Assembly (NCBI GenBank): GCA_030429345.1
Contig: JAUIFJ010000031.1
Span: 1-38,285, forward strand
DNA from: a bacterium
Lineage (GTDB): Bacteria > CAIWAD01
Direction of reading: 5' to 3'
Length of the DNA stretch: 38,285 nucleotides
A program made the translations under genes and the position numbers. Numbering within the stretch: position 1 is the stretch's first letter; every line of letters starts with the position of its first letter. Positions 6,797-25,687 of this stretch are shown one piece after another. The notes under the pieces were generated by a model. It was given only the letters and a program-made list of their open reading frames with translations, was not told where the DNA came from and did not search any database.

Positions 6797-8095
6797 ATGC
6801 GTACCCTGCTTGCCTGCCTGGCCAGCCTGGCCCCGATCGTCTGCTCCGCCCAGGACCTGCCCACCGTGAATACATCCGTCCAGGCCGACCTGGCGGACAG
6901 CCTGGCCCGCGACCTGCGCGAGGTCTACATCTTCGAGGACAAGGCCGAGGCCATGGCGCGGATGCTGAAGGATGGCGCCGCCTCCGGTGCCTGGGCGGAT
7001 CACAGCGACCCCCACCTCTTCGTCGAAGCCCTGACGCGGGACCTTCGAGGAATCTGCGAGGATCTGCATCTGCGCGTCGGCGTGCAGCCCCTGCCCTTGG
7101 ACGACGAGCCACGGGGGCCGATGGGCCCTGATCCGCTGGAGCAGGCGCGGCAAAGCAATTTCGGCTTCCAGAAACTGGAACGTCTGGAAGGCAACGTGGG
7201 CTACCTGGAGCTCAGCGGCTTCTCCGGATTCCCGGAGGCGGGCGAGGTCGCCGTGGCGAGCATGAACTGGCTGGCCGGTTGTGATGCATTGATCATCGAC
7301 CTGAGGCAGAACGGCGGTGGCTCCCCGAGCATGATCCAGCTGCTCTGCTCCTACCTTTTTGAAGGCCCGCGGCACCTGAATTCCTTCTACATTCGCCAGT
7401 CGGACACAACGCAGCAGTTCTGGACACAGAACCGCGTCCAGGGGCGGCGTCTCACGGATCAGCCCGTATATGTCCTCACGAGTTCCCGCACCTTCTCCGC
7501 CGCCGAGGAGTTCAGCTACAACCTGAAACACATGGAACGGGCGACCCTCGTCGGTGAGACAACCGGCGGCGGCGCGCATCCGGTCACAGGCTACTTCTAC
7601 GACTTCGAGCACTGGCGCTTCACGCTGTCGATGCCCTATGGACGGGCGATCAATCCGGTCACCGGTACCAACTGGGAGGGAGTGGGCGTGATCCCGCAGG
7701 TGGAATGCCCCTCGACGGATGCGCTGCAGGTGGCGCACAGGAAGGCTCTCGAGGACCTGCTCGCCGCAGGGGACGGGGAAGACCGGGACGGGATCCAGTG
7801 GGCCCTGGACGGATTGCGCGCGCAGTCGGATCCCCTGGAGATCTCCCGGAAAACGGCGAAGGAGCTGGAAGGCGACTACGGGCCGAGACACATCACGAGG
7901 CGCAAGGGAGAGTTGTATTACCAGCGCGACGAGCGCCCCGAGTTCCGCCTGGTCGGCATAGCAGAGGATCTCCTCGCCCTGGAAGGCATGGACACCTTCC
8001 GGCTGCGCGTGGAGCGCGACGAGGAGGGCCGGATCACGGCGCTGGTCGGATTGTACTCCAACGGCAACCGCGACCGCAGTCCCCGCGATCGCTGA
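6797..8095 (+). CDS. secreted S41-family peptidase, IRBP-like
   Basis: A 432-residue exported serine protease. It starts at ATG 6797 with an AAAGGAT ribosome site; the first 18 residues (MRTLLACLASLAPIVCSA) are a signal peptide. Next comes an N-terminal helical part with DLREVYIFEDKAEAMA, then the S41 core: GYLELSGFSG, LIIDLRQNGGGSPSM (about residues 166-180), SSRTFSAAEEF with nucleophile Ser234, LVGETTGGGAHP, and NWEGVGVIPQVE near the end of the core. This is the tricorn/IRBP-like S41 branch, which trims peptides in the envelope. The C-terminal 100 residues resemble the small beta domain often trailing such enzymes. It is a paralog of the protein at 3779, sharing the DLR, TFSAAE and VGET-type blocks. 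Confidence 0.87.
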   Translation: MRTLLACLASLAPIVCSAQDLPTVNTSVQADLADSLARDLREVYIFEDKAEAMARMLKDGAASGAWADHSDPHLFVEALTRDLRGICEDLHLRVGVQPLPLDDEPRGPMGPDPLEQARQSNFGFQKLERLEGNVGYLELSGFSGFPEAGEVAVASMNWLAGCDALIIDLRQNGGGSPSMIQLLCSYLFEGPRHLNSFYIRQSDTTQQFWTQNRVQGRRLTDQPVYVLTSSRTFSAAEEFSYNLKHMERATLVGETTGGGAHPVTGYFYDFEHWRFTLSMPYGRAINPVTGTNWEGVGVIPQVECPSTDALQVAHRKALEDLLAAGDGEDRDGIQWALDGLRAQSDPLEISRKTAKELEGDYGPRHITRRKGELYYQRDERPEFRLVGIAEDLLALEGMDTFRLRVERDEEGRITALVGLYSNGNRDRSPRDR

Positions 8096-8114: not shown

Positions 8115-8144
8115 AAAGCGGGTCCCGCTTCCGGGACCCGCTTT
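8115..8144. terminator. perfect 13-bp hairpin terminator, bidirectional
   Basis: Arms AAAGCGGGTCCCG and CGGGACCCGCTTT pair perfectly around CTTC. On the plus strand it follows the S41 peptidase stop by 19 bases and has three Ts in the stem end. On the minus strand it lies just past the tRNA-Lys 3' end and continues into TTTTTCTC. It can end transcription from both sides. Confidence 0.85.
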
Positions 8145-8152
8145 CTATGGGA

Positions 8153-8225
8153 TGAAGGTGGAAGGACTCGAACCTTCGACCGGCGCCTTAAAAGGGCGAT
8201 GCTCTACCAACTGAGCTACACCTCC
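8153..8225 (-). tRNA. tRNA-Lys (anticodon TTT)
   Basis: The minus strand folds as a 73-base tRNA. The acceptor GGAGGTG pairs with CACCTTC with one G-U, the D arm is GCTC..GAGC around AGTTGGTA, the anticodon stem is CGCCC-type around CTTTTAA, and the T arm is GAAGG TTCGAGT CCTTC. The anticodon bases lie at 8190-8192 on the plus strand, reading UUU for lysine. The discriminator is A, and the bases after it are TCC, so CCA is not encoded and must be added after 3' cleavage, the pathway normally served by RNase Z, whose gene lies about 1.1 kb away. Confidence 0.96.
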
Positions 8226-8287
8226 AGCCTTCCCCTTGGGGAAGCGGCTAACTTAATGCCCACGGCAGGAACTTCCAACGGGGCCTC

Positions 8288-23800: not shown

Positions 23801-24940
23801 ATGGGATTCAATACCAAGGCCATCCATGCCGGACAGCCTGCAGACCCGGCCACCGGATCGATCACGGTGCCGATCATCCAGACCTCGACCTTCGTGCAGG
23901 AAGGCATTGGTGAACACAAGGGCTGGGACTACACCCGGGCCGGCAATCCTACGCGGGACGCGGCGCAGCTCAACCTGGCGGCGCTGGAGAACGCGCGCTA
24001 CGGCCACCTCTTCTCCAGCGGCATGTCGGCGATCCACGCGCTGACCGCGCTGCTCAAGACCGGCGACCACGTGCTCTGCACGAGGGATGTATACGGCGGC
24101 ACCTGGCGCCTCTTCAGCAAAGTGCTCGAGCCCTTCGGCCTGTCCTTCGACTTCGTCGAGACGCATCACGTGGACAAGGTCCGCGCGGCGATCCGCCCGG
24201 AAACGAAGCTGCTCTTCGTCGAGACGCCGACCAACCCGCTGCTCAGCCTGACCGACATCCAGGCCATGGCGGAGATCGCGAAGGAGCACGACCTGGTGCT
24301 GGTGGTCGACAACACCTTTATGTCGCCCTTCTTCCAGAATCCCCTCGACCTGGGCGCGGACATCGTGATGCACAGCTGCACCAAGTACATCCTAGGACAC
24401 AGCGACATGATCGCCGGCTTCCTGGCGACCAATGACGCCGCGATCTCGGAGAAACTGGCCTTCATGCAGAAGTGCACGGGCGCGCTGCCTTCCCCCATGG
24501 ATTCCTTCCTCATCATGCGCAGCACCAAGACCCTGGGCGTGCGCATGGAACGGCACTACACCAACGCCATGCAGATCGCCCTCTACCTGAACGAGCACAA
24601 GAAGGTGCGGAAGGTGCACTACCCGGGCCTGCCCTCTCATCCCCATCACGAGCTGGGCAGTCGGCAGATGCGCGGTTTCGGCGGCATGATCTCCATCGAG
24701 ATGGAGCACTACGAGGCGGCGCAGGCCCTGGCGACGCACATGCGCTACATCCGCCTGGCGGAGAGCCTGGGCGGTGTCGAAAGCCTGGTCAACCATCCTG
24801 CCGGCATGACTCACGCCAGCGTCCCGAAGGAGCAGCGCGAGGCCTACGGCCTGAAGGACAGCCTGCTGCGCCTCTCGATCGGCATCGAGGACCTGGACGA
24901 CCTGCTCGAAGACCTCGAACAAGGCCTGGCCGGGGTGTAG
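23801..24940 (+). CDS. PLP-dependent trans-sulfuration enzyme (cystathionine gamma-synthase/lyase family)
   Basis: A 379-residue fold-type-I PLP enzyme. Family markers: FNTKAIHAGQP at the N-terminus, WDYTRAGNPTRDAAQLNLAALE (substrate and PLP phosphate), FSSGMSAIHALTALLKTGDHVL, DVYGGTWRLF, VVDNTFMSPF and HSCTKYILGHSD, where the Schiff-base lysine is Lys195. The C-terminal half has GFGGMISIEM and SLGGVESLVNHPAGMTHASVPKEQR with the catalytic Arg region. Whether it is MetB (cystathionine synthase), MetC-like, a gamma-lyase or MetY-like cannot be settled from sequence; the motif set fits MetB/cystathionine gamma-lyase best. It ends exactly where the large palindromic element starts. Confidence 0.88.
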   Translation: MGFNTKAIHAGQPADPATGSITVPIIQTSTFVQEGIGEHKGWDYTRAGNPTRDAAQLNLAALENARYGHLFSSGMSAIHALTALLKTGDHVLCTRDVYGGTWRLFSKVLEPFGLSFDFVETHHVDKVRAAIRPETKLLFVETPTNPLLSLTDIQAMAEIAKEHDLVLVVDNTFMSPFFQNPLDLGADIVMHSCTKYILGHSDMIAGFLATNDAAISEKLAFMQKCTGALPSPMDSFLIMRSTKTLGVRMERHYTNAMQIALYLNEHKKVRKVHYPGLPSHPHHELGSRQMRGFGGMISIEMEHYEAAQALATHMRYIRLAESLGGVESLVNHPAGMTHASVPKEQREAYGLKDSLLRLSIGIEDLDDLLEDLEQGLAGV

Positions 24941-25076
24941 AAGAACTCGCACGGAGGGCACGGAGAAGACAGGGGCCACAGAGAACTCAAAGGGGTGTGA
25001 TTCATTGAATCACACCCCTTTTATCATTCTCTTCTCCGAGCTCTCCGTCTTCTCCGTGCCCTCCGTGCGAGTTCTT
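24941..25076. repeat. 136-bp palindromic element with 30-bp perfect arms
   Basis: The 30 bases 24941-24970 are the exact reverse complement of 25047-25076. The arms are built around a CACGGAGGGCACGGAG core like dispersed palindromic repeats I recall from other bacteria. Between them, a second perfect palindrome at 24989-25021 has a 16-base stem with a single central T. The left arm starts on the first base after the metB-type gene's TAG, and the right arm ends inside the TTA (TAA stop) of the facing membrane-protein gene, so the element fills the space between two converging stops. No open reading frame lies inside. Confidence 0.9.
24989..25022. terminator. bidirectional terminator inside the palindromic element
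   Basis: Arms AAAGGGGTGTGATTCA and TGAATCACACCCCTTT (16 bases, perfect) flank one T. A run of Ts follows on the plus strand (TTTT across the arm end), and on the minus strand the arm also ends in TTT. It lies between converging genes and should stop transcription from both. Confidence 0.85.
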
Positions 25077-25518
25077 ATTTCTTATAGAACAACGGTCGGC
25101 GGCGCCAGAGGTAGAGGAGGATGAGGGCCGCGACCAGGAAGGCCCAGGCGGTCTGGACCAGGTAGATGCCGCTCAGCGTGCCCAGGTCCGCTTCCGGCCC
25201 CAGGACGGCCTGGTGATGGGGCATGGCCTGTTCCCGGCCGAAGAGGAAGCCGGCGAAATTCCAGAGGGCCAGCGTAACACAGAAGGCCTGCCACCACAGG
25301 GTCAGGCGGTAGGCCAGGGGCGTCGGTCTGAGCAGCGCGACGACGACAGCCAGCGCGAAGACGGCCTGCAAGGCATGATACAGCGTCGCCCGAGCGCCCT
25401 CCAGCAGCAGGGAGCCGCTGAGAACGGGATCGCTGATGCCGAATAGATGGCGTACTACATGATAGGCCGCCCAGGCGGCAATCAGCAGCAGGCCCGGATC
25501 CGGGCGGCGTTGGGTCAC
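25075..25518 (-). CDS. small four-helix membrane protein of unknown function
   Basis: A 147-residue protein from the GTG at 25518, chosen because CAGGAC lies six bases upstream and the upstream in-frame ATG at 25563 lies in the second palindromic element. Four hydrophobic segments are clear: about residues 8-20, 37-54, 62-80 and 115-137. The loop after the third holds FLFGREQAMPHH and GPEADLGTLSGI. The end is basic (LWRRRPLFYKK), so the C-terminus is probably cytoplasmic. I do not recognise the family. It is the only gene between the two palindromic elements. Confidence 0.7.
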   Translation of the reverse strand: MTQRRPDPGLLLIAAWAAYHVVRHLFGISDPVLSGSLLLEGARATLYHALQAVFALAVVVALLRPTPLAYRLTLWWQAFCVTLALWNFAGFLFGREQAMPHHQAVLGPEADLGTLSGIYLVQTAWAFLVAALILLYLWRRRPLFYKK

Positions 25519-25542
25519 GGATTGTCCTGATTCAAAAAGAGG

Positions 25543-25687
25543 CTCGCGCAAAGACACAGGCACGCGAAGAGCGGCCTTCAGGAATGATACGAAATCCTGG
25601 CAAGCCTAGCTGATCACCGGCAAAGCCCGGTCACACGAACACCCCACAAACCTCCGCGCTCTCCGCGCCCCCGCGTCTCTGCGCGAG
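25543..25687. repeat. second palindromic element with imperfect arms
   Basis: The left arm 25543-25574 and right arm about 25654-25687 are inverted and match at about 80% with a few gaps (cores CTCGCGCA..AGAC..CGCG..AGAGCG). The right arm resembles the dispersed CTCCGCG..TCTCTGCGCGAG repeats of other genomes. The right arm lies nine bases beyond the beta-propeller gene's stop. The 79 bases between hold no clear gene. It differs in sequence from the element at 24941 but has the same architecture. Confidence 0.7.

Follow-up and report, generated by a model that had tools for sequence, protein, structure and literature searches.

According to excerpts of one source (PMC3733652), bacterial REP sequences occur as single copies and as dimers with variable spacers, lie near the 3' ends of genes and have termini that can provide stop codons, and REP families without a dedicated transposase exist, such as the CGTC family. 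Another class of short tandem units, the TAACTGA direct repeats of Beggiatoaceae and cyanobacteria, is found beside or overlapping gene ends and is suspected to be mobile, as passages of a second source describe (PMC4679880). The locus considered here is an inverted repeat of 136 nt (24941-25076) within a 38,285-nt stretch of bacterial DNA (contig JAUIFJ010000031.1, assembly GCA_030429345.1; hereafter the window), where it fills the gap between two converging genes. Its arms (24941-24970 and 25047-25076) form a perfect inverted repeat of 30 nt, which extends to 45 nt at 87% identity (24941-24985 on the plus strand and 25032-25076 on the minus strand, with E-values of 2.9e-12 and 1.9e-13 under the arm model introduced below), and a perfect 16+16 inverted repeat (24989-25004 and 25006-25021) is nested inside them; both features, reported in an initial annotation of the window, were verified at these positions. 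The folding energy of the strand, -97.1 kcal/mol, was equalled by none of 200 dinucleotide shuffles (mean -39.3, z -16.3).

The placement of the arms relative to stop codons, also part of the initial annotation, was borne out. The first base of the left arm adjoins the TAG stop (24938-24940, plus strand) of a full-length gene (23801-24940, plus strand) encoding a PLP-dependent enzyme of Cys/Met metabolism, of the cystathionine gamma-synthase/lyase type, while the final two bases of the right arm (25075-25076) lie within the TAA stop (25075-25077, minus strand) of the facing gene (25075-25563, minus strand), which encodes 162 aa, matches no Pfam family and was called on codon usage only. Both arms contain CACGGAG/CACAGAG units at 9-nt steps, that is, inverted arrays of tandem CRCVRAK units. 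There are no genes between the arms, and this copy is therefore claimed only as a gene-less relative of the GxxExxY inverted-repeat element discussed below. A search of the window at Rfam gathering scores matched a tRNA-Lys only, leaving the palindrome unmatched.

The core of the palindrome had been likened to dispersed palindromic repeats, and a search for further copies, as had been proposed, recovered them in number, confirming this likeness; the outcome named as refuting, an absence of other copies, did not occur. A BLAST search with the element against its own genome gave about a hundred matches, a 16-nt unit pattern gave 41 (none with the reversed control), and a model of the 45-nt arm identified 102 arms in the 4.24-Mb genome (103 matches at E <=0.1, of which the last, 22 nt long with E 0.017, was dropped). 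When a plus arm followed by a minus arm within 1 kb is counted as a pair, these resolve into 30 inverted pairs and 42 single arms, with pair spacers of 12 to 581 nt, mostly 12 to 90. The consensus approximates AAGAGCTCGCACGGAG(A/G)GCACGGAGAAGAC(A/G)GAG(A/G)GCACGGAGAA, a fixed end followed by CACGGAG-like units every 9 nt. The exact arm pattern matched no stretch in a collection of genome contigs (in which the source genome is possibly not included), and among same-family relatives there is one weak match in G001 and none in G002 and G003.

Apart from dispersed repeats of other kinds and a single weak hairpin match linking contigs C51 and C56, spacers are unrelated among copies, and this combination of like arms with unrelated spacers is not what a plain copy-and-paste element predicts. 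Arms within a pair are 0.814 identical over 30 nt, against 0.765 for permuted arms (0/5,000 permutations as high), and some share rare variants. The arms of a pair are therefore either co-derived or have been corrected against one another, and their independent insertion was rejected on the same grounds. None of the 24 pairs with clear ends shows a target-site duplication of at least 4 nt. Arms also pile up and nest in this genome. A second dispersed palindromic repeat, of GTCATTCCGTGGCTTGACCACGGAATCC type, occurs inside several arm pairs (for example C65:45361-45998, C21:105882-106374, C9:143039-143306 and C63:48845-49258), and arms at C64:55434-55605, near C64:57898 and C64:64060, and at C63:48845 enclose yet another arm type, AAGAACTCACGCAGAGACGCAGAGGCG, indicating that elements of such kind accumulate at the same gene ends. 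The pair at C89:42685-43347, both arms of which carry the same rare variant, encloses an open frame of 147 aa, presumably DUF454-like, and is possibly a case of host-gene capture. Four minus arms on contig C9 (C9:150, C9:2228, C9:4572 and C9:182079) differ at the outer end, where AACAGCCTT precedes CTCGCACGG, and have similar surroundings; they may represent either a separate subfamily or a duplication.

The arms are not randomly placed with respect to genes. Genes were called from open frames combined with codon usage, scored after training on the retrieved regions, and had to span 60 codons or more with a score of 12 or more. On this basis 42/102 arms have a gene stop between -2 and +5 nt relative to their outer end, compared with 33/10,000 positions drawn at random from these regions; 2/102 arms have a stop at +6 to +11 nt, and 60/102 are not at a detected stop. 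A stricter earlier version placed 36/102 arms at stops, against 36/3,000 random intergenic points. Counted by group, 37/72 have at least one stop-adjacent end, and five pairs, including that of the window, have two. In many cases the arm supplies the last bases of the stop (T+AA, TG+A) or directly abuts it (TAG), and orientation at stops is fixed, 5'-AAGAGCTCGCACGGAG... reading on from the stop. Host genes span many functions. For RNase Y, SucB, PurU, an EtfA-like protein, PurQ and Lon, family matches run to within a few positions of the model end, with a tail beyond the family model of 14 residues in Lon and 8 in PurQ; since these six proteins and the PLP enzyme reach the C-terminus of their families, the arms lie at natural stops and do not truncate their hosts.

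That arms concentrate sharply at the stop and all but vanish 6-11 nt beyond suggests targeting rather than the survival of harmless insertions. The initial annotation had proposed targeted insertion at a terminator: the targeting of gene ends is strongly supported, but the contrast between the two distance classes (42/102 against 2/102 arms) identifies the stop codon, not the terminator, as the aim. It had also called for a comparison of orthologous loci. Orthologues of the PLP enzyme (62% identity) are present in three same-family genomes, which do not share the downstream gene of the window. The orthologous gene end in G001 and G002 lacks inverted unit arrays, and in G003, which belongs to another genus, an element made of CACGAAG units lies about 14 nt after the stop of the PLP gene (locus L277), two same-genus genomes being without it. 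This comparison thus revealed re-use of the site by another arm type, but no clean empty site.

Between the arms of the window, the nested hairpin AAAGGGG...CCCCTTT (24989-25021) is a probable two-way terminator of both converging genes. It is strong and flanked by A and T runs, is absent from the list produced by a consensus terminator scan, and has a sequence that is not common to other copies. A strong hairpin of its own, outside the shared repeats, was found in 7/30 arm pairs, and convergent gaps contain a strong hairpin in 6/9 cases with arms and 3/9 without. Among the latter is an AAAG...CTTT hairpin in an arm-free convergent gap of the window (8115-8144). As the inner hairpins differ from copy to copy, and as this type occurs where arms are absent, they look host-owned, and the central hairpin of the palindrome is most likely the terminator of the host; the initial suggestion that the element itself supplies a terminator is not supported. 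The hairpin at 8115-8144 is a perfect AAAGCGGGTCCCG-CTTC-CGGGACCCGCTTT structure, located with the tRNA-Lys (8150-8226) 3' of a gene ending at 8095. Insertion of the whole palindrome at one point was considered and rejected, as it leaves unexplained the unique host-type terminators and the other repeats found inside arms.

A probable coding relative is found in the same genome. The single GxxExxY gene of this genome, matched at C81:8990-9301 on the minus strand, has its match 38 bases inside an arm (C81:8907-8951) that completes the stop of a long host gene; the contig ends within the GxxExxY gene, so that the second arm would lie beyond the contig end. The product, a PD-(D/E)XK protein, scores 117.8 bits against the GxxExxY family TIGR04256 (cut-off 35) and 116.4 against Pfam PF13366 (cut-off 22). 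Nine positions are invariant in 24 aligned GxxExxY proteins, this one included (G18, G20, E23, Y26, D63, E73, K75, Q87 and Y91), and the catalytic residues E, D, ExK and QxxxY are retained in it. A confident structure model (pLDDT 95.9) is nearest to SSO0001 (4ic1; Z 9.7, rmsd 3.9 over 98 residues), which we take to be a Cas4 protein. Foldseek returned no match to the model at E 0.001 or better (E 1.4e-3, a named Cas4 ranking fourth), and a search of the structure library by sequence gave no solved relative. The predicted fold is Cas4/RecB-like and nearest to Cas4, membership of Cas4 not being claimed.

To what extent does this association extend to other bacteria? GxxExxY was found in 87/386 genomes searched. 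Each 200-nt flank of a locus was locally aligned to the reverse complement of the other, and inverted-repeat flanks were recorded when the score exceeded those of all 60 block shuffles. Such flanks are present at 57/70 GxxExxY loci in a first set, compared with 0/70 control windows from the same loci, and at 65/78 loci against 3/80 control windows in a named set, made of an independent 80 loci from GTDB species, of which two were left out for short flanks; 13/70 and 13/78 loci showed no inverted repeat by this test. At least two CRCVRAK units are present in an arm at 43/70 loci of the first set, and at 55 loci against no control window in the named set. GxxExxY genes lie between such arms in many phyla. 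Units differ among genomes (CACAGAG, CACGGAG, CGCAGAG, CGCAGAT, CACAAAG, CACGAAG, CACGAAT), and one distant locus (L299; arm model E 2e-4) carries CTCGCACGGAG in its arm, as in the source genome.

Placement at stops recurs at these loci. Open frames of at least 110 codons were considered, and only outer ends belonging to loci that have an inverted repeat and an identifiable unit, with 400 nt available beyond the end. Such a frame terminates 0-16 nt ahead of the first unit at 21/88 ends in the first set (170/8,000 at random) and at 33/110 in the named set (192/8,000 at random). In the latter, 30 of the 33 stop-adjacent ends are upstream of the GxxExxY gene, which is therefore co-directional with the host gene there; the GxxExxY gene of the source genome, unlike those at most of these loci, faces its host gene. 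The stop test applied to the dispersed repeats of six other genomes gave a weak trend, few stops falling beside units. Two loci (L332 and L363) have GxxExxY copies with an in-frame stop codon and are apparently decaying.

Gene-less copies also follow the presence of GxxExxY. Unit pairs, CTCYGTGNNCTCYGTG, are present in 101/386 genomes, and GxxExxY occurs in 24/25 genomes with at least 10 CTCYGTG unit pairs against 63/361 of the others, an association that holds with or without the S23 family; one high-count genome (G247) is without GxxExxY. A search with CGCAGATT, a unit that derives from the G063 GxxExxY locus, gave 126 matches in that genome. Among the 32 genomes searched with it, this unit is also dispersed in G038, G183, G052 and G144, the other genomes classed as that arm type (for G052 and G144 the class was assigned from the search data and not declared beforehand), and it occurs in 4/27 remaining genomes (G044, G313, G175 and G133, all with several GxxExxY genes) and in none elsewhere. 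The arms at the GxxExxY loci of a genome and its dispersed gene-less copies are in agreement, and gene-less palindromes of such kind were directly seen in G356 and G233. S23/PF05635 genes were examined as a negative control family, CTCYGYG units being present at 1/30 of their loci. Across genomes S23, too, tracks unit counts (22/25 against 136/361 genomes), but not once GxxExxY is accounted for. Most of these four-helix-bundle genes (L205-L234) lie between inverted repeats of other units, often with 7-nt steps, such as AGTGATCAGTGGTC; S23 loci therefore serve as a control for unit type only, random windows of the GxxExxY loci having been used for inverted repeats, and they may constitute a sister class of elements.

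Taken together, we consider with moderate confidence that the palindrome belongs, as a copy devoid of genes, to a family of small inverted-repeat elements; in this family GxxExxY is carried by the coding members, and the arms are located at stops. One alternative is that the arms are mobilised by something else, GxxExxY being a passenger often caught between them. Arm pairs do enclose other sequences, such as the 147-aa frame on contig C89 and other repeats, and S23/PF05635 genes too have inverted repeats on either side, built from other units with a mostly 7-nt period. Against this, GxxExxY is located between arms at 57/70 and 65/78 loci, the arm type tracks the GxxExxY locus, and the effect of S23 given GxxExxY (p 0.25) is to be set against that of GxxExxY given S23 (p 4e-8), all of which makes this explanation unlikely. 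The arms might otherwise be non-mobile regulatory elements selected by the host at 3' ends, as mRNA stabilisers, RNase III sites or insulators, which would fit their sense orientation past stops, their strong pairing and the terminators between them. This is distinctly improbable, given that they are missing from same-family relatives (the single weak match in G001 apart, G002 and G003 having none), that the host genes are functionally diverse, and that similar arms carry a nuclease gene elsewhere, pile up and nest.

Movement of REP/BIME sequences by RAYT, a Y1 transposase, would account for single copies and inverted pairs, for spacers mostly below 100 nt and for placement at 3' ends and stops, all of which are reported for REPs in the excerpted parts of PMC3733652, and Y1 matches number 10 in the source genome. 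Arms taken singly are not hairpins, their mean folding energy being -6.3 kcal/mol against -6.6 for shuffled sequences; the GTAG tag is found at 4/102 arms and CGTC at 2/102; 0/10 Y1 genes have an arm within 6 kb; and 5/8 of the Y1 loci inspected carry their own inverted repeats, none resembling the arms. On arm folding, tags, distance to Y1 genes and the repeats of the Y1 loci themselves, this candidate was rejected as very unlikely. The Y1/RAYT-like loci with unrelated flanking repeats (five of eight; L167-L171, Y1 transposase genes of the source genome) represent separate REP families in that genome. A long terminator of the ordinary kind, evolved in situ and with a palindrome due to chance, could rely on the central hairpin, which alone would serve as a terminator; it is refuted by the 102 arm copies of the same sequence, and is hardly credible.

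How, then, could elements carrying GxxExxY, and their gene-less relatives such as that of the window, operate? In coding members, a single gene for a GxxExxY PD-(D/E)XK nuclease would lie between arms made of tandem 8-10-nt CRCVRAK units, and the nuclease may recognise these unit arrays and promote their spread, perhaps through cleavage close to or at stops. The arms lie at natural stop codons of the host in one fixed orientation, and between converging genes an arm pair fills the gap around the host terminator, resulting in a long palindrome. Entry at the stop would spare the host protein, and the coding form could be transcribed from the host gene. In RNA, the arms would pair into a long double-stranded stem past the stop, probably without serving the host. 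No arm movement has been observed, which counts against a mobile element, and the mobility of the arms, like their recognition by the nuclease, is inferred. The most likely mechanism is that of a REP-like selfish element.

The name given by NCBI to the curated GxxExxY family refers to a motif only. If GxxExxY drives these elements, a common and unexplained class of bacterial repeats would be accounted for, and the sole protein of the mobile element would be a nuclease of Cas4/RecB type. Such elements would also be a clear example of insertion at stop codons: how would a process acting on DNA find the end of a reading frame? More tentatively, and with rather less assurance than for the window itself, GxxExxY nucleases could mark out a large class of minimal mobile elements, so far unrecognised and roughly half a kilobase long, with one Cas4/RecB-like nuclease gene between inverted arrays of short units. 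These would insert at stops, leaving the host protein intact and the nuclease gene, co-directional at most stop-adjacent ends, readable from the host transcript; their gene-less derivatives would account for a large part of the palindromic DNA in many genomes, and an S23 sister class with other units may exist. In the open-access literature covered by the search (subscription journals and preprints lying outside it), no link of GxxExxY to such repeats was found, and the unit sequences led only to unrelated work; the GxxExxY inverted-repeat element is small, widespread and apparently undescribed.

Among known systems, PD-(D/E)XK homing endonucleases sit in self-splicing introns, I-Ssp6803I being, we presume, one that has this fold. 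They resemble the present case in being small PD-(D/E)XK nucleases encoded inside an element, which here differs in being bounded by inverted unit arrays and in lying outside coding sequence. With MITEs, the arms would share terminal inverted repeats common to a less frequent relative that carries a gene within this genome, where GxxExxY, the putative transposition gene, adjoins one arm; in contrast to MITEs, 0/24 pairs have a target-site duplication, the gene encodes a PD-(D/E)XK nuclease and not a known transposase, and the spacers are unrelated. The TAACTGA repeats, as far as they are described in the passages of PMC4679880 cited above, differ by a 7-nt unit, by a mostly start-codon-oriented placement and by being direct and not inverted, and are nearer to the S23/PF05635 units. 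In their general behaviour the arms resemble REP, BIME and REPIN sequences, which, in the excerpts to which this comparison refers, are likewise high-copy, occur as singles and inverted pairs with short spacers, and are located at gene 3' ends with termini that complete stops. The arms depart from REPs and BIMEs in that they are not self-palindromes and are without the GTAG/CGTC tag, and in that they are linked to GxxExxY rather than to RAYT genes.
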